From the NCBI RefSeq assembly GCF_000506985.1, contig NZ_KI650980.1:744001-808000 (forward strand): a stretch of 64,000 nt of DNA, read 5' to 3'. Shown piece after piece: positions 9,663 through 32,152 of the stretch; position 1 is the first letter of the stretch; every line of letters begins with the position of its first letter. The translations under genes and the position numbers were made by a program. Source of the stretch: Advenella kashmirensis W13003 (GTDB lineage: Bacteria; Pseudomonadota; Gammaproteobacteria; Burkholderiales; Burkholderiaceae_B). The notes below the pieces were generated by a model. The model was not told the origin of the DNA, ran no database searches, and saw only the letters and a program-made list of their open reading frames with translations.

Positions 9663-10622
9663 TCAGACTGCAACCGCTTTTTCAAGCGCCGCAGCAAAAT
9701 GGTCAGCAACGTCAAAATCAGTCTGTTCTGTAATTTCAACAAAACAGGTCGGACTGGTCACGTTGATCTCGGTAATATAGTTACCGATGACATCGAGCCC
9801 GACCAGCAGCAAACCTCGCTCGCGCAAAATCGGGCCAATACGGCTGGCGATGGACAGATCGTGGTCCGACAGCTTGCGCGCCACGCCGCGTCCGCCTGCC
9901 GCCAGATTGCCACGGGTTTCACCCGCAAGCGGGATCCGTGCCAGTGCATAGGGGACAGGTGTACCATCGATAATCAAAATCCGTTTATCGCCTTCAACGA
10001 TTTCAGGAATATATTTTTGCGCCATGATGGTCTGCGTCTGATCAACCGTCAGCGTTTCCAGAATGGCATTGATGTTGGGATCGGCAGCCGTCACTCTGAA
10101 AATGCCGGTGCCGCCCATACCATCGAGCGGCTTGACGATGATGTCACCGTGCAGCGCATGAAACGCTTTCAGGCGTGAGATGCGGCTGGTAATCAGCGTG
10201 GGCGCCGTAAATTCGGAAAACTCCGTGATTGCCAGTTTTTCCGGATGATTGCGTATCGCATTCCCGGAATTGAAGACACGTGCGCCCTGCTTTTCTGCCG
10301 TCTCAAGCAGGTGGGTTGAGTACAGATACTCCATATCAAACGGAGGATCCTTGCGCATCACGACGGCGTCAAAATGATTGACTTCGGTTTCGACCGCTTC
10401 GTCTTCCTGCGTCCACCAGCTGTGTTCATGCAGGTCTGCAGTCATATCCAGACGAATCTGCTGGGCACGTACTTTGACCCGGCCCAGTTCAACATACAAA
10501 TCGGACTGCAACGCAACACTGATGTCATGGTCCCGTTTTTGCAGGGCGCGCATCATGGCGACTGAACTGTCCTTGTATGCCTTCAGGGTTGGCAGCGGAT
10601 CAATGATAAAAAGTATGTGCAT
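9663..10622 (-). CDS. gshB: glutathione synthetase
   Basis: 319 residues starting MHILFIIDPLPTLKAYKDSS, the standard GshB N-terminus. A GTG five codons earlier is a less likely start. The ATP-grasp fold is seen in IIVKPLDGMGGTGIFRV and in the C-terminal EINVTSPTCFVEI. The enzyme ligates glycine to gamma-glutamylcysteine using ATP in the cytosol. It lies 47 bp after infC and just upstream of the PTS genes. gshA is not in the window. infC beside gshB is unexpected, since rpmI normally follows infC. Confidence 0.96.
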   Translation of the reverse strand: MHILFIIDPLPTLKAYKDSSVAMMRALQKRDHDISVALQSDLYVELGRVKVRAQQIRLDMTADLHEHSWWTQEDEAVETEVNHFDAVVMRKDPPFDMEYLYSTHLLETAEKQGARVFNSGNAIRNHPEKLAITEFSEFTAPTLITSRISRLKAFHALHGDIIVKPLDGMGGTGIFRVTAADPNINAILETLTVDQTQTIMAQKYIPEIVEGDKRILIIDGTPVPYALARIPLAGETRGNLAAGGRGVARKLSDHDLSIASRIGPILRERGLLLVGLDVIGNYITEINVTSPTCFVEITEQTDFDVADHFAAALEKAVAV

Positions 10623-10669
10623 CTGATTACATCCCACATGAACAACGCAAGCGTATTGTTTGTCCGAGT

Positions 10670-11218
10670 TTATTTATCGTCTGATTTGCCGGAGGTCACT
10701 GTCTTGCGCTTGGGCGCCAGAACCATGACCATTTGACGACCTTCCAGCTTGGGCATGGCTTCCACCTGAACCAGTTCAGCCATATCGTCACGAACCCGTT
10801 CAAGCACCCGCATACCCAGTTCCTGGTGGGCCATTTCACGCCCGCGAAAACGCAGCGTGACCTTGGCTTTGTCACCATCTTCGATAAAACGCTTCAGGTT
10901 ACGCAATTTAACCTGATAGTCGCCTTCATCGGTCGCCGGGCGGAATTTGACTTCCTTGACCTGGATGATTTTCTGCTTGGCCTTGGCTTCCTGCTGGCGT
11001 TTTTGTTCCTGGTACTTGAACTTGCCATAGTCCATGATACGGCATACCGGTGGCTCGGCGTTGGGGGCGATTTCAACTAAATCAATCCCTTCCTGCTCGG
11101 CAAGACGCAAAGCTTCAACGGTTTTGACAATACCCAGCTGTTCGCCATCCACGCCGATGAGTCGGACTTCCGGAATACGGATTTCGGCGTTGATACGATT
11201 GGTTTTTTCGGTTGCGAT
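10670..11218 (-). CDS. infC: translation initiation factor IF-3 with probable AUC start codon
   Basis: 182 residues ending [19 protein letters not shown]. The N-terminal domain starts at (I)[18 protein letters not shown] and the C-terminal domain includes [18 protein letters not shown]. The family start aligns with an ATC codon at 11218-11216, preceded by AGGAG with eight bases between. The only upstream ATG (11257) is inside the end of thrS, ahead of this Shine-Dalgarno, and would add 13 unrelated residues. IF-3 rejects non-canonical starts, and infC of E. coli uses AUU to autoregulate; AUC fits that logic. It lies 25 bp after thrS. Confidence 0.9.
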
Positions 11219-11243
11219 GTTAAGATCTCCTGAAATTAATAAA

Positions 11244-13178
11244 CTACGCTGCGACATCCTGACGTGTTGTCACGTCGTGACGCAAGCGCTCTATAAATGC
11301 GTCTACAGACATGGTGCCCAGATCGAGGTTGCCACGGGCGCGAACGGCGACAGCACCACTTTCACGTTCTTTTTCGCCAACAACCAGAATGTAGGGAACC
11401 TTCTGCATACTGTTCTCTCTGATTTTACGGGTGATTTTTTCCCCGCGCAAATCGGATGATGCACGAAAACCGTGCTTTTTGAGCTCATCTACGACTGAAC
11501 GGGCATAGTCGGAGAAGGACTCTGAAATGGTACAGACCACCACCTGTTCGGGAGCCAGCCATGGTGGCATGGCGCCGGCATGGTTCTCGATGAGCATACC
11601 GATAAAGCGTTCCAGCGAACCCAGAATCGCCCGGTGCAACATGACAGGCGTTTTACGCTGATCATGCGGATCGACATATTCCGCGCCCAGCCGCACAGGC
11701 ATTGAAAAGTCTACCTGGATGGTGCCGCACTGCCAATGGCGACCGATGGCGTCCTTCAGGGTATATTCCACCTTCGGACCGTAAAAAGCACCCTCTCCCG
11801 GTGAAATTTCAAATTCACAGCCGGAACTGCGCAGGCTTTCCATCAGCGCATGCTCGGCCTTGTCCCAGACTTCGTCGTCGCCGATCCGTTTTTCGGGACG
11901 GGTAGCCACTTTGTAGAGCACTTCGGTAAACCCGAAATCTTTGTAGACCTGCTGTAAAAGTGTTGTGAATTGGGCACACTCTGCCAGCAATTGGTCTTCG
12001 GTACAGAAAATATGACCGTCGTCCTGGGTAAAACCGCGTACCCGCATCATCCCGTGCAGGGAGCCGGAAGGCTCATTGCGATGGCATTGTCCGAACTCAC
12101 CATAGCGGATAGGCAATTCACGATAGGAATGCAAGCCGGCATTGTAAATCTGCACGTGTCCGGGGCAGTTCATGGGCTTGAGCCCGTAAACCCGGTTCTC
12201 GGACTCGGTGATGAACATGTTTTCTTTGTAATTGTCCCAGTGTCCGGTTTTCTTCCAGAGGGACAAATCCAGAATTTGCGGCGCTTTGACTTCCTGGTAG
12301 CCATTGTCGCGATAAACATCGCGCATGTACTGTTCAACCTGTTGCCAGATCTGCCAGCCTTTGGGGTGCCAGAAAATCAGCCCCGGCGCTTCGTCCTGGA
12401 AATGAAAAAGATCCAGCTCGCGGCCCAGCTTGCGATGATCGCGTTTTTCAGCTTCTTCAAGCATGGTCAGGTAGCTGGCCTGTTCTTCCTTGGTGGCCCA
12501 GGCTGTGCCATAGACACGCTGCAGCATTTCATTTTTGCTGTCGCCGCGCCAATACGCCCCAGCGACTTTCATCAGCTTGAAAACCTTCAGCTTGCCGGTA
12601 GACGGTACGTGGGGGCCCCGGCACAAGTCTACGAAATCGCCTTCGCGATAAAGGGAGATTGTCTGGTCCTGTGGAATGGAAGCGATGATTTCAGCTTTAT
12701 ACGCTTCGCCCTGCTCACGGAAAAACGCGACAGCATCGTCGCGTGACCACTCTTCGCGAACCACTTTTTCGTCTTTTTTGGCCAGTTCCGCCATTTTCTT
12801 CTCGATTTTCTCGAGATCTTCAGGTGTAAACGCGCGTTTATACGAAAAGTCGTAATAAAAGCCATTATCGATGACCGGCCCGATGGTGACCTGTGCGTCG
12901 GGAAACAGCGATTTGACGGCATAGGCAAGCAGGTGCGCAGTGGAATGGCGAATAATATCCAGACCGTCGGCGTCTTTGGCGGTCACAATGGCCAGGTCTG
13001 CGTCCTGGTCAATCACAAAGGAGGTATCGACCAGCTGGGGTTCGGCGCCATTGATTGTTACTTTACCGGCCAGCGCGGCCTTGCCCAGACTGGGGGCAAT
13101 GGTCGTCGCAATTTCCCCTACCTGGACAGGTTGGGAAAACTCACGCTTGGAACCATCGGGTAAAGTAATATGAAACAT
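11244..13178 (-). CDS. thrS: threonyl-tRNA synthetase
   Basis: 644 residues, full length. The N-terminal TGS domain (residues 1-61) is followed by the editing domain with [12 protein letters not shown] near residue 78. The class II core has [14 protein letters not shown] and the zinc-site cysteine and histidines, and the anticodon-binding C-terminus has [13 protein letters not shown]. It charges tRNA-Thr and hydrolyses Ser-tRNA-Thr. An apparent attenuator (Thr-containing leader peptide plus terminator) sits in the 157 bp upstream, which would raise expression when charged tRNA-Thr is scarce. infC follows after 25 bp. Confidence 0.97.
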
Positions 13179-13198: not shown

Positions 13199-13227
13199 AA
13201 AAAAACGCGACTTCACCAAGTCGCGTT
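13199..13227 (-). terminator. thrS leader attenuator terminator
   Basis: On the minus strand AACGCGACTT-GGTG-AAGTCGCGTT (13227-13204) forms a perfect 10-bp stem with a four-base loop. Its 3' arm continues into TTTTT (to 13199), giving an unbroken seven-base U run. It ends about 20 bp before the thrS ATG, so read-through is needed to express thrS-infC unless another promoter exists. Confidence 0.8.
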
Positions 13228-13271
13228 CGCTGTTCTTCTGAAAAATACGGTGGGCAAGAATCACGAGCGCG
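13222..13271 (-). promoter_or_regulatory. candidate antiterminator of the thrS leader
   Basis: CGCGCTCG (13271-13264) can pair with CGAACGCG (13229-13222) at seven of eight positions. The second segment overlaps six bases of the terminator's 5' arm, so the two structures exclude each other. The first segment directly precedes the leader-peptide stop codon and would be covered by a ribosome finishing the peptide. This is a pairing proposal by eye, without energy calculation. Confidence 0.5.
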
Positions 13272-13335
13272 CTGGGTGACCGATACACGTATCGGACGTG
13301 GTCAGGCGTTGGGTTCGTGAAGCTTGGGACATCAT
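13261..13335 (-). CDS. thrS leader peptide (24 aa, four Thr)
   Basis: An ATGATG start with GGTGAG nine bases upstream opens a 24-codon frame ending TGA. The peptide is [17 protein letters not shown] followed by IGHPARS, with Thr at 8, 12, 13 and 16. It lies between the putative thrS promoter and the leader terminator. A ribosome stalled at the Thr codons would leave the antiterminator strand free; one that reaches the stop codon would block it and favour termination. Thr density is lower than in the E. coli thr leader, so peptide conservation across relatives is the key test. Confidence 0.62.
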
Positions 13336-13369
13336 CAAAACAGTCTCACCTTTAGTAAATTACGCGACA

Positions 13370-13399
13370 ATTTTACACCAGCCTTGAACCAATAACCAA
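13370..13399 (-). promoter_or_regulatory. candidate sigma70 promoter for the thrS leader
   Basis: TAAAAT (13370-13375) is preceded after 18 bp by TTGGTT (13394-13399) on the minus strand. The start point would fall near 13363, about 28 nt before the leader-peptide ATG. The -35 box is weak. Confidence 0.42.
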
Positions 13400-13588: not shown

Positions 13589-14131
13589 ATGTCTGTACAC
13601 CGCCTGTTGCGCCTTGCACTTGCTGCCCTTGCCCTTGGACTGCTGGCCGCTTGTGCCGGTATGAACGGCGACCAGCGAGCACAGCTGGAAATAAGCCAGG
13701 ACCCGCGTGGTGTGGCCATTGCGTCGCGGGACAGCAATCTGTTCCAGCCGGGTTCTGCCACGCTGCAGCCCGAATCGGCTCCGTTTTTTGACCGCGTCAG
13801 CCAGTTGCTGCGCGACAGACCCGAGCGCAAGGCCCTGATCGATAGCGTATCGGACAATACCGGTTCAGCCGAATACAACCAGGAGCTGCAGGAAGTGCGC
13901 GCGCTCTCAATCATGAAAGCCCTGATTACACGCGGCGTAGACCGTTCGCGCCTGGCGTATGTCACGGGTTCATCTGCCTCCCCTGCCCCCGGCGCCATGA
14001 CGCCTGTCGAACCGGCCGTCCCGCAATCAAAAATTATCATTCTGGGCGCCAGCACCGCCGATATGAATGTCAACACCCTTGAACGATTCTTTGACGGCAT
14101 CTCCAATTTCGGCAAAAGCCTGTTCAAGTGA
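13589..14131 (+). CDS. OmpA-like lipoprotein
   Basis: 180 residues starting MSVHRLLRLALAALALGLLA, a signal peptide ending in lipobox LLAAC (Cys at about residue 22). The ATG at 13589 has GGAG nine bases upstream; longer in-frame starts add unrelated sequence. The OmpA C-terminal domain is seen in SDNTGSAEYNQELQEVRALS followed by LITRGVDRSRL. The usual RRVEI ending of the family is replaced by SKIIILGAST. Such proteins bind peptidoglycan and tether the outer membrane. It is divergent from thrS and is followed by a second envelope gene on the same strand. The exact role is unknown. Confidence 0.8.
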   Translation: MSVHRLLRLALAALALGLLAACAGMNGDQRAQLEISQDPRGVAIASRDSNLFQPGSATLQPESAPFFDRVSQLLRDRPERKALIDSVSDNTGSAEYNQELQEVRALSIMKALITRGVDRSRLAYVTGSSASPAPGAMTPVEPAVPQSKIIILGASTADMNVNTLERFFDGISNFGKSLFK

Positions 14132-15250: not shown

Positions 15251-17722
15251 TCAGTGTTTCACTGATTTAACAGTATTGTCCACTGCCGGTTTCGCAGAAG
15301 CGACAGCGGCCTCTTCTGCCAGTTTGGCAATTTCAGCTTCGGACAAAGGTGTCAGTGGCCTTTCGAGCGCCACTTCCAGCACGCGATCAATCCATTTGAC
15401 AGGAATGATTTCCAGCTGGTTTTTCACATTGTCCGGAATCTCGGTCAGATCCTTGACATTCTCTTCAGGAATCAGCACGGTCTTGATTCCACCGCGATGA
15501 GCTGCCAGCAGTTTCTCTTTCAAGCCACCAATGGCCAGCACTTCACCGCGCAAGGTGATCTCACCGGTCATAGCAACCTCTGCCCTGACGGGAATACCGG
15601 ACAATGCCGACACCAGTGCAGTCGTAATCGCAATACCGGCTGACGGACCATCTTTGGGTGTTGCGCCTTCCGGTACGTGGATATGAATATCCTTTTTCTC
15701 AAAGATACTGTCGGCAAAGCCAAGCGCATGTGCGCGCGAACGCACGACGGTACGGGCTGCCTGCATGGACTCTTTCATCACATCGCCAAGCAGGCCGGTA
15801 TGCTGAATATTGCCTTTGCCCGTGACCACGGCCACTTCAATCGTCAGCAAATCGCCACCCACTTCGGTCCACGCCAAGCCAGTAACCTGGCCAACCTGGT
15901 TTTCTTTCTCGGCCATGCCAAATGAATACTTGCGCACGCCCAGATAGTGGCTCAGATTATCGGCAGTCACATGGATTGCTTCGGCAGTCGCTGCCTTGCC
16001 TTTACCTGCAGCTTTACCCGTTGTGGTCGTACTGCTGAGCAGTTCCTTGATCACCTTGCGGCAGATTTTGCTGGCTTCGCGTTCAAGTGCACGTACACCG
16101 GATTCACGTGTGTAGTAACGCACGATATCGCGCAATGCAGACTCTTCCACCACCAGCTCACCCTCGCGCACGCCATTATTCTTCATGAGCTTGGGCAGCA
16201 GGTGGTCCATCGCAATATGTACTTTTTCGTCTTCGGTATAGCCTGACAGACGAATCACTTCCATCCGGTCCAGCAATGCTGGTGGAATGTTCAGTGTATT
16301 GCTGGTCGCAACAAACATCACATCCGACAGATCATAATCGACTTCGACATAGTGATCCTGGAAGGTGTGGTTCTGTTCGGGATCCAGCACTTCCAGCAAT
16401 GCAGAGGCCGGATCGCCACGAAAATCCATGCCCAGCTTGTCAATCTCATCGAGCAAGAACAGGGGATTGCGTACGCCAACACGATTCATGTTCTGCAGAA
16501 TCTTGCCTGGCAATGCGCCAATGTAGGTGCGCCGGTGGCCGCGAATTTCGGCTTCGTCCCGCACACCGCCCAGTGCCATCCGCGTAAATTTGCGATTGGT
16601 TGCGCGCGCGATGGACTGGCCCAGCGAGGTTTTACCCACGCCCGGAGGGCCAACCAGGCACAGAATAGGCGCCTTGACCTTGTCTACACGCTGCTGTACC
16701 GCCAGATATTCAAGGATGCGTTCCTTGACTTTTTCCAGACCGTAATGATCATCGTCCAGCACTTTCTGTGCATTGATAAGGGAGTTGTTGATACGGCTTT
16801 TCTTCTTCCAGGGCAGGCCGATGACGGTGTCGATATAGTTGCGTACCACCGTTGCCTCTGCCGACATGGGAGACATGAGTTTGAGTTTCTTCAGCTCGCT
16901 ATCGACTTTCTTGCGCGCTTCCTTGGGCAGTTGCGCCGCTTCTATTTTCTTTTCGAGCTCTTCGATATCCGCGCCCTCTTCACCCTCGCCGAGTTCTTTT
17001 TGAATCGCCTTGACCTGCTCGTTCAAATAGTAGTCACGCTGGCTTTTTTCCATCTGCTTTTTGACGCGCCCGCGAATGCGTTTCTCGACCTGGAGAATAT
17101 CAATTTCAGTTTCGATCTGAGCGAGCAGCGCTTCAAGACGACCGGACGCATCCAGCTCTTCAAGCAGTTTTTGCTTCTGTTCGAGTTTGAGCGGCAGGTG
17201 TGAAGAAATGGTATCGGCAAGCCGGCTGGCTTCTTCAATACCATTGAGGGAACTGAGAATTTCCGGAGGGATTTTCTTGTTCAGCTTAACGTATTGATCG
17301 AATTGCGCAATAATCGTGCGCCGCAATGCTTCGAGTTCGGAATTGCGGGTGTCATTCTGCTCGATAGGCAGAATTTGTGCCGAAAAATGCGACTCGGTTT
17401 CGATGATTTTTTCTACACGCGCGCGCTGCTGGCCTTCGACCAGTACCTTAACGGTGCCGTCGGGCAGCTTGAGCATTTGCAGGATAGACGCAACGCACCC
17501 GATTTCATACATATCGTCAGGACCGGGCTCGTCCTTGCTGGCCGATTTCTGGGCCACAAGCATGATCTGCTTGTCTTTTTCCATCGCCAGTTCCAGCGCG
17601 CGGATGGACCGGTGCCTACCGACGAAGAGCGGGATGACCATATGTGGGAATACCACTACGTCGCGAAGGGGCAACAGTGGCAATTCCGTTGATTCTGCCG
17701 GCAAAATCTGACTCGCTGACAT
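15251..17722 (-). CDS. lon: ATP-dependent protease Lon
   Basis: 823 residues. The N-terminal substrate-binding domain ([20 protein letters not shown]) is followed by a coiled coil and the AAA+ module with [15 protein letters not shown]. The protease domain has Ser694 in [10 protein letters not shown] and a lysine 43 residues later ([12 protein letters not shown]), the catalytic dyad. A poorly conserved Ala/Lys/Val tail ends the protein. Lon degrades misfolded and regulatory proteins in the cytoplasm. It is the last gene of tig-clpP-clpX-lon, 191 bp after clpX, with its own sigma32-type promoter. hupB, which often follows lon, is absent here. Confidence 0.97.
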
Positions 17723-30440: not shown

Positions 30441-32152
30441 CAGGAATATCCAGACAAGCCTACGCCGAGATTTTTGGCCCGACCGTCGCCGATGGCCGCC
30501 CCGACCGGGTGCGGCTGGCTGATACCGGACTCCTTGTCGAAGTCGAAAAGGATTTGACCATCTACGGCGAAGAGGTCAAATTCGGCGGTGGCAAAGTGAT
30601 TCGCGACGGCATGGGCCAGAGCCAGCGCTGCACCGCAGATTGCGCCGATACGGTCATCACCAATGCACTGATCATCGATGCTATAGCCGGTATTATCAAA
30701 GCCGATATCGGCATCAAGAACGGCCATATTTGCGCCATCGGCAAGGCCGGCAATCCTGACATCCAGCCAGGTATCACGATTGTCATCGGTCCCGGAACAG
30801 AGATCATTGCGGCAGAAGGGCTTATCGTCACTGCCGGTGGCATTGATACCCATATTCATTTTATTTGTCCGCAACAAATCGAAGAGGCCCTGACATCCGG
30901 CATTACGACCATGATCGGCGGCGGTACCGGCCCGGCAACCGGCACCTTCGCGACCACCTGTACGCCGGGGCCGTGGCACATCCATGCCATGCTTGGAGCG
31001 ACCGACGCTTTTCCAATGAATATCGGCCTGCTTGGCAAGGGCAATGCGAGTCAGGCGGCGCCCTTGCTGGAACAGATTCAGGCAGGCGCTCTGGGACTGA
31101 AACTGCATGAAGACTGGGGCACTACACCACAGGCTATCGATACCTGCCTGAGTGTTGCCGAACAGACCGATACCCAGGTCGCCATTCACAGCGATACCCT
31201 GAACGAGTCAGGTTTCGTAGAGGCCACGCTGGCCGCCTTCAAAGGACGCACGATTCACACCTTTCATACAGAAGGCGCGGGCGGCGGGCATGCGCCCGAT
31301 ATTATTCGCGCTGCCGGCCTGCCCAATGTACTGCCCGCCTCCACCAATCCGACCATGCCCTTTACCCATAATACGATTGATGAACATCTGGATATGCTGA
31401 TGGTGTGCCACCACCTGGATCCGGCAATCGCCGAGGATCTGGCCTTTGCCGAAAGTCGCATCCGGCGCGAAACCATCGCCGCCGAAGACATTCTGCACGA
31501 CCTTGGTGCATTTTCCATTATGAGTTCCGACTCGCAGGCCATGGGGCGCGTGGGCGAAGTGATTCTTCGTACCTGGCAGACGGCAGACAAAATGAAGCAG
31601 CAACGGGGCAGTCTGGCCGGGGACACGAACCAGGCCGACAATAACCGGGTCAAGCGATTCATTGCCAAATACACCATCAATCCCGCGATCGCGCAGGGCA
31701 TCTCCCATAAGGTCGGTTCGGTCCAGGCGGGCAAGCTGGCCGATCTCGTGCTATGGCGTCCGGCATTTTTCGGTGTCAAGCCCAGTCTGATTATCAAAGG
31801 CGGCATGATCGCGCACGCGGTGATGGGGGACCCCAATGCGTCTATTCCCACACCCCAACCGGTCCACTACAGAAAAATGTTTGGTGCTTATGGACGTGCC
31901 CTCAATAACTCGCTGTGCTTTGTCTCACAGGCGGGCTTTGACAACGACGCAGTACGTACGCTGGGGCTGACAAAACCCTTATGCGCCGTCAATGGGTGCC
32001 GCAATATCGGCAAGCAGGATATGGTGCGAAATGACTGGCTTCCCGACATTCAGGTAGACCCGCAAACCTATCAGGTCTTTGCCGACGGCCAGTTACTGCA
32101 TTGCGAACCTGCACATACACTGCCCCTGGCGCAGCGCTATTTCCTGTTTTGA
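30437..32152 (+). CDS. ureC: urease alpha (catalytic) subunit
   Basis: 571 residues. All active-site residues of the family are present: nickel ligands His139 and His141 (DTHIHF), carbamylated Lys222 and His224 (LKLHEDWG), His251, His277 ([11 protein letters not shown]), Asp365 (SSDSQAMG), and flap Cys324/His325 (MVCHHLD). It hydrolyses urea to ammonia and carbamate in the cytoplasm. Numbering is shifted by five relative to the Klebsiella enzyme. It follows ureB with a four-base overlap and precedes ureE by 34 bp. Confidence 0.99.

Follow-up and report, generated by a model that had tools for sequence, protein, structure and literature searches.

The thrS gene of the window (by which is meant the whole stretch of 64,000 nucleotides of Advenella DNA analysed here) is very probably controlled by a ribosome-mediated transcription attenuator that would sense charged tRNA-Thr, and that perhaps also governs infC, to judge from the sequence and from modelled RNA folds. 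A threonine-type attenuator in the thrS leader had been proposed in the original prediction, and it is now supported in silico by its parts, by its recurrence in relatives, by mutually exclusive predicted folds and by partner-specific pairing; the transcription start site, the stalling of the ribosome, termination in cells and the co-control of infC are what we infer, the last of these from gene order.

In such a system, RNA polymerase would start upstream of a short, threonine-containing ORF and a ribosome would follow it. With ample Thr-tRNA, the ribosome would reach the stop codon, which lies inside a segment called here region 2, and would mask that segment, and the terminator (3:4) would end transcription; with scarce Thr-tRNA, it would halt at the Thr codons and hide region 1, the 2:3 pairing would form, and transcription would enter thrS; and with no ribosome at all, regions 1 and 2 would pair and the terminator would form. 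On this model these bacteria probably make more ThrRS when threonine-loaded tRNA runs low. If this is true, a large clade related to E. coli would read charged tRNA by means of the ribosome and not by means of ThrRS, and a function would be given to the small ORFs that precede thrS here.

The gene under control, thrS, for threonyl-tRNA synthetase, occupies 11247..13178 on the minus strand (stop at 11244-11246) and is identified by the Pfam domains TGS, tRNA_SAD, tRNA-synt_2b and HGTP_anticodon; its product has 86% identity to the ThrRS of Advenella mandrilli (L062), and the thrS upstream regions of L062 and of the same-genus genome G004 are identical. The next gene in the same direction is infC, encoding IF-3 (Pfam IF3_N and IF3_C; 10673..11257 on the minus strand, for the ORF as listed), whose true start is probably an AUC codon at 11218-11216 on that strand, where AGGAG is followed by AUC GCA ACC; the listed ATG lies 13 codons upstream, within the 3′ end of thrS. 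This context of AUC and AGGAG is also legible at several other Alcaligenaceae loci (L006, L010 and L022, for example). In E. coli infC has its own promoters inside thrS, and infC may have them here likewise. On the other side of the leader lies an OmpA-family gene (13589..14131, plus strand; Pfam OmpA and ORF list), divergent from thrS, and the first gene identified further upstream on the minus strand is lon (15251-17722); since the neighbour of thrS is divergent, the terminator at 13227-13199 can serve the thrS leader only.

The leader-peptide ORF itself (13261..13335, minus strand), which is indicated by sequence, recurrence and folds alike, has 24 codons, starts with ATGATG at 13335-13330 and stops with TGA at 13263-13261. 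Counted from the first ATG, codons 8, 12, 13 and 16 are for threonine (13314-13312, 13302-13300, 13299-13297 and 13290-13288, respectively, on the minus strand), which become 7, 11, 12 and 15 if the second ATG is used, and a Shine-Dalgarno-like AAAGGTGAG precedes the ORF at 13345..13353 on the same strand, so that the double start, the ribosome-binding site and the peptide with its four Thr are all found where they had been predicted. The close Advenella genomes (G001, G005, G006, G007 and G009) have the same GGTGAG before the ORF. For an attenuator, the window peptide is poor in threonine, with four Thr among 24 codons and at most two in a row. The folds predict a hairpin inside the ORF, CCGAUA-CGUG-UAUCGG (13280..13295, minus strand), located 3′ to Thr codons 12-13 and sharing bases with codon 16, that is kept in the close Advenella genomes (with a CGUA loop in G009) and was not seen in G002, G003, G004 and G008; it is possible that it acts as a pause hairpin.

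The promoter-like sequence is the weakest item of the original prediction: by eye, a TAAAAT (13375-13370) can be read with a TTGGTT (13399-13394) at a spacing of 18 nt upstream, which makes 13370..13399 on the minus strand a candidate promoter, but a scan of the window for the promoter consensus found none ahead of the thrS leader. The TAAAAT is kept in G006. A −10-like TGnTAnAnT is present upstream of 25 of 40 Alcaligenaceae leaders, as against 0-5 in ten shuffles, and the window site does not fit it.

Between the ORF and thrS lies the terminator (13199..13227, minus strand), AACGCGACUU-GGUG-AAGUCGCGUU followed by a U run, with a perfect 10-bp stem and −15.6 kcal/mol in the terminator scan; its arms at 13227-13218 and 13213-13204 and its seven T at 13205-13199 are evident both from reading the sequence and from the scan, which confirm the perfect intrinsic terminator with seven-U run that had been described just before thrS. 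Three further segments take part in the predicted folds. Region 1 (13315..13326, minus strand), recognised from the fold of the free leader and from its duplex with its own region 2, consists of CAAG (13326-13323) and UCACGA (13320-13315), which in the predicted fold without a ribosome pair with CUUG at 13258-13255 and with UCGUGA at 13266-13261, respectively. Region 2 (13256..13271, minus strand), CGCG-C-UCGU-GA-UUCUU, is in folds and duplexes the 5′ half of the antiterminator; it holds the stop codon of the leader, and its UCGUGA is the one that also pairs with region 1. The 3′ half of the antiterminator (AAGAA, GCGA and CGCG, predicted at 13222..13237, minus strand) overlaps the 5′ arm of the terminator. 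The predicted antiterminator pairs are CGCG 13271-13268 with CGCG 13225-13222, UCGU 13266-13263 with GCGA 13230-13227, and UUCUU 13260-13256 with AAGAA 13237-13233. Thus the segment CGCGCUCG at 13271-13264 on the minus strand, directly before the leader stop, for which pairing with the 5′ arm had been claimed, is predicted to pair with that arm and also with the bases before it.

Folding of the 147-nt leader gives −46.1 kcal/mol; shuffled sequences give −34.06 ± 3.25, and none of 200 is as stable. When a ribosome is added to the model, the free RNA being counted from 12 nt downstream of the first base of the codon in the A site, the RNA present before the 3′ arm of the terminator is made has −15.1 to −16.1 kcal/mol with the ribosome at codon 12, 13 or 16. 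Once the 3′ arm is present, the antiterminator is still in the minimum-energy fold when the A site holds the Thr of codon 8, 12 or 13, and the terminator is in the predicted fold with the ribosome at codon 16 or at the stop, or absent; in terms of probability, the terminator is formed at 0.91 without a ribosome, at 0.28 with codon 8 and 0.03 with codon 12 in the A site, and again at 0.91 at the stop.

To place the window among its relatives, thrS upstream regions were taken from 61 genomes and from 80 named genomes (the best 80 of 582), of which 139 remained when two duplicates among the 141 were dropped. In a second set from the same order, taken as Burkholderiales in the broad sense on the basis of the named relatives, 137 of 140 genomes matched: 28 were already in the sample, 76 gave new upstreams that were used, L238 (170 nt) was dropped and 32 were left out. 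For the same class outside the order, 56 genomes were searched and 53 matched, the window's own included, the best 29 with loci being used and 23 left out. An upstream ORF with four or more Thr is found in 57.6% of the 139 thrS upstreams and in 16.3% of their shuffles, and of the 19 amino acids tested in such short ORFs threonine alone is in large excess, glycine coming next (26.6% against 18.6%).

A strict rule, which demands an ATG ORF of 6-40 codons, an Arg-Thr with two Thr or more among the five codons that follow the Arg, and a terminator after the stop, is fitted by 81 of the 139 and 21 of the 76 order upstreams (102/215), by none of the 29 from the class outside the order, and by none on reverse strands. 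Control rules in which Arg is followed by Ala, Pro, Ser, Gly or Leu boxes gave 0-1 per set, and Arg-Val gave 1, 6 and 0; variants that retain Thr (T-R, P-T and L-T) gave 2-11 in the two order sets, because they can catch the same leaders. All 10 Advenella genomes fit the rule, as do 27 of 38 from the window's own family and 16 of 50 sampled families, so that the peptide frame and the Thr codons, on whose conservation the original prediction had staked itself, are not lost in relatives, where the Thr excess points the same way. The rule fits 50 of 78 upstreams from named genomes and 52 of 137 from the remaining ones, and fails in 58 of the 139 and 55 of the 76 order upstreams, and in 11 of 38 within the own family. 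By sequence, then, the putative attenuator system is limited neither to Advenella nor to Alcaligenaceae. Short ORFs and terminators are common, and it could be argued that a random ORF merely happens to lie upstream of a terminator that closes a neighbouring gene, but that neighbour is divergent, and it is mainly because the arrangement recurs in relatives, in 102 of 215 order upstreams with controls near 0, that chance is excluded; this reading is refuted at the level of the clade, and for the window we give it practically no credit.

The leaders so collected are varied, with MKTTRTTTWHF in G033 of the own family, MFFPLARTTTRNFRPMSR in Achromobacter, a type beginning MTPRTT in Massilia, Roseateles, Rhizobacter and Methylibium, and up to nine Thr in a single leader (L122), while MTPRTFGSVHPA (L123) is missed by the strict rule by design, having one Thr after the Arg. 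A looser list of 107 ORFs, from which 20 were removed by hand as tRNA-derived or chance (11 of these without an ATG start), left 87, and a terminator stands behind 86 of them; these 86 terminator-bearing leaders, five of which (G015, G057, L101, L105 and L123) fail the strict rule, are those used for the folds with stalled and stopped ribosomes. Strict DNA patterns were discarded as a census for their narrowness (hits in 13 of 300 genomes and in 11 of 121), and the count over 121 genomes was discarded as evidence, the reversed pattern having matched more often than the pattern itself; of its 12 matches, six were checked, G386 having one in a thrS leader and one elsewhere, apparently inside a CDS, and those in G027, G019, G033 and G011 being leaders already in the set.

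Some upstream regions in the order show parts of the arrangement. In L021 (G028) and L072, a promoter-like GTTACACTA is followed within about 25 nt by a AACGCGGC...GCCGCGTT terminator, with the leader ORF missing, and in L074 and L076 a terminator is likewise kept upstream of thrS without a leader ORF. In leaders of the Oxalobacteraceae/Pandoraea type (L120, L113 and L087), GCGACGCTAGTCGAGG or a similar stretch lies around the stop, followed by a T-rich part; by eye it looks conserved and similar to an additional, weaker terminator ahead of the main one.

A stalled ribosome always frees more RNA than one at the stop, and for this reason dinucleotide shuffles of the free part were used as the control. 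In the 86 leaders, the gain in pairing of the 5′ arm on going from stop to stall is 0.213, as against 0.052 in the shuffles (standard deviation of set means, 0.028); the gain exceeds 0.2 in 49% of the leaders (42/86) and in 22% of shuffles, and two leaders lose as much. As had been proposed, then, the alternative stems of the window form in the predicted folds of both states, and the set as a whole exceeds its shuffles. The pairing is also partner-specific: when region 2 was swapped among the 102 leaders, the own partner gave −10.4 kcal/mol against −9.3 for swapped ones in the 1:2 pairing (none of 2000 permutations as good) and −13.0 against −12.3 in the 2:3 pairing (one of 2000), although taken leader by leader the own partner beats the mean of its own row in only 63% (1:2) and 64% (2:3). 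On 75 less similar leaders, a choice that reduces relatedness and does not remove it, z is −4.2 (1:2) and −3.4 (2:3), with fractions of 0 and 0.0004 of 5000 permutations as good. Among the duplexes of 5′ arm and region 2 are ACGCGGC with GCCGCGT, GCGCGACTA with TAGTCGCG, AGTGCGACTT with GAGTCGGCTTT, and AGCGCGGACC with GGTTCGCGC.

At equilibrium, the mean probability of the terminator is 0.78 with the ribosome at the first Thr and 0.94 at the stop, and many leaders keep the terminator when stalled, so that there the outcome would have to be decided by kinetics. In five close Advenella relatives, for instance, 0.61-0.67 of the 5′ arm is paired before the 3′ arm is made if the ribosome is stalled, and 0.14-0.23 if it is at the stop, but this same antiterminator yields once the 3′ arm exists, the terminator then having a probability of 0.79-0.85 in the stalled state. 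In those five, the 5′ arm is also paired without any ribosome (0.62-0.67), by which their 1:2 branch is weak, and in G006 the ribosome-free probability of the terminator is 0.32; in the folds, the branch by which a lack of translation would lead to termination is clean for some leaders only. The persistence of the terminator in many stalled states would also suit a short ORF that acts on translation, by reinitiation or by exposing the thrS start, with the hairpin a constitutive partial terminator or an element of mRNA stability, and leader ORFs can reportedly raise the translation of the next gene (PMC4833913). This explanation would not lead one to expect an enrichment in Thr, a stop codon inside the 5′ half of an antiterminator, or a stall-dependent change in the 5′ arm beyond that of the shuffles, and we regard it as improbable, if slightly less so than the other rivals.

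Control of thrS is a textbook case of translational feedback in E. coli, by way of an operator that mimics the anticodon arm of tRNA-Thr and blocks the translation of thrS, and if the attenuator is real, a related clade would use another mechanism for the same problem. That feedback, in which ThrRS binds an mRNA hairpin, is the known control of thrS in E. coli (PMC3858243), and is like the attenuator in the gene concerned and in being a feedback on threonylation capacity, and unlike it in acting on translation through the binding of ThrRS to a hairpin (PMC3858243). With a rule that asks for a Thr anticodon (CGU, GGU or UGU) at the centre of a loop 28-39 nt before thrS, an anticodon-like arm is found in 13 of the 29 class members outside the order, where the shuffle mean is 0.33, but in only 11 of 139 and 2 of 76 within it (shuffle means of 1.3 and 1.0); 9 of these 11 and one of these two are terminator-like by eye, the only match of the window included, and the remaining three (G028, L072 and G223) do not resemble the operator. 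A narrower rule with a 7-nt loop was matched by 6 of 139 in the order and 3 of 29 outside it. The window does have its hairpin with a CGUG loop (13295-13280), but that loop is of 4 nt, lies about 100 nt upstream within the ORF, and is limited to close Advenella genomes. No arm like that of the E. coli operator was recognised, by scan and by eye, in the 215 order upstreams, and a feedback of this type is very hard to credit for the window. Outside the order, 16 of the 29 upstreams have neither a leader-peptide attenuator nor an operator arm. From these sequences, leader-peptide attenuation and the ThrRS operator look like alternatives that divide by clade among the genomes sampled. In the anticodon-like arms outside the order (L142-L170), the loop carries CGU, GGU or UGU, and the Thr isoacceptor that is mimicked seems to vary between lineages.

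A further mode of control would be the direct sensing of uncharged tRNA by the leader RNA, after the manner of T-boxes, which control most synthetase genes in Firmicutes (PMC1262725), where thrS is often under two or three of them in tandem (PMC12452182). In the thrS leader, however, no Rfam family was matched at gathering score, the two matches up to E = 5 do not include a T-box, and what is conserved is a reading frame; such sensing deserves almost no belief here.

The leader of the thr operon in E. coli (thrL; Rfam Thr_leader) likewise has a Thr-codon leader peptide with a terminator and an antiterminator; it controls biosynthesis and senses Thr plus Ile. Thr_leader has no match in the window at gathering score, nor in the leader up to E = 5, which lowers the claim that the leader is a Thr_leader and not the claim that it works like one. 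A leader of that kind was not seen in the 350 nt upstream of hom (homoserine dehydrogenase), the one Thr biosynthesis gene covered, in four genomes, in a scan for short ORFs with at least four Thr plus Ile to which no terminator rule was applied; the scan listed only two nested frames in L277, which overlap the apparent CDS of the preceding gene.

Leader peptides and attenuators have been described before synthetase genes. In Streptomyces lividans TK24 there is a thrS leader peptide, which its authors call threonine-dependent (PMC8079986); it is like the present one in the gene and in its short ORF with Thr codons (MKRVRPFLETTPGFVPAR, with two Thr), and unlike it in belonging to the Actinobacteria, in its leaderless ORF, in having only those two Thr, and in its single hairpin without a U-rich stretch, for which termination is unclear (PMC8079986). 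The leaders of the order, in contrast, reach the nine Thr mentioned above, and have clear intrinsic terminators and an antiterminator across 16 of the 50 sampled families. The motif uORFC-8-2, upstream of cysS in Rhodobacterales, is a predicted ribosome-mediated attenuator (PMC8632094), and is comparable in its arrangement, in that a synthetase gene stands behind a short ORF that contains codons for the amino acid the enzyme uses; it concerns cysteine and Alphaproteobacteria (PMC8632094). Attenuators are also described upstream of pheST in Gammaproteobacteria and of trpS and leuS in Streptomyces (PMC1262725), which are similar as classical attenuators before synthetase genes and different in amino acid and clade (PMC1262725). 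A survey of 2013 notes that Rfam has amino-acid attenuators for His, Leu, Thr and Trp, and that these may derive from Gammaproteobacteria (PMC3766115). Among the literature matches listed there was no betaproteobacterial thrS leader peptide, although one may be in a survey of proteobacterial attenuators of 2004 (FEMS Microbiol Lett) outside that search. The mechanism is therefore of a known kind, and it is its betaproteobacterial thrS member, the spread of this member and the CGA-ACU pair discussed next that appear to be undescribed in the literature searched.

This pair became evident on comparison of the leaders, as a conserved rare dicodon CGA-ACN, which in the window is CGA-ACC (13312..13317, minus strand). 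Of the 102 leaders, 98 have CGA and the other four CGG as the Arg codon that precedes the Thr run, and all 67 leaders that are not of the MTPRT type have CGA, although CGA makes up 2.9% of the Arg codons in thrS in those named genomes that carry a leader; the codon after the Arg is ACU in 83 of 102 leaders, as against 5.5% of the Thr codons in the same thrS genes. With a rule that does not ask for Arg, 84 of 92 Thr-rich leaders hold an in-frame CGA-ACN, and five are without any Arg-Thr. Base pairing was considered as the cause of CGA, and set aside as explaining at most part of it: in 51% of leaders the A takes part in a pair, and a change from CGA to CGC weakens the 1:2 pairing in 53 of 102. 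CGA is read by an inosine tRNA, and a slow codon of this sort, placed just before the Thr codons, would set the timing of the ribosome relative to RNA polymerase; alternatively, the leader would sense the state of tRNA-Arg(ICG) as well as that of charged tRNA-Thr. It is a tentative idea, and on balance a rather doubtful one, that the near-invariant CGA-ACU is a working part of the switch, which would then be a codon-timed or two-input attenuator across many betaproteobacterial families, in place of the ThrRS-operator feedback of other Gammaproteobacteria. The near-invariant CGA-ACU in an otherwise free peptide would offer a cheap test of whether attenuators have codon speed built into them.

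Some minor observations concern the surroundings of thrS. The window has no tRNA gene. Of six loci scanned, four (L048, L040, L153 and L116) have a tRNA-Val gene (anticodon GAC) shortly before thrS and in the same orientation, L021 has it on the opposite strand, and in L258 none was found; by eye it recurs in many more upstreams. In one Advenella genome (G007:C1:2205562-2207492), thrS is present as two overlapping pieces, one of them with an internal TGA, by an assembly error or in a broken gene. Downstream, in the window, gshB follows directly after infC, and rplT and an L35 motif are some 9 kb from infC (1252-1569, 1745-1786 and 9666-10637, minus strand, for the three together); in L086, L098 and L087, which are loci of Noviherbaspirillum, Roseateles and Pandoraea, the motif is close behind infC. 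Elsewhere in the window, at 30599-30887 on the minus strand, there is an Rfam 5_ureB_sRNA match of 110 bits.
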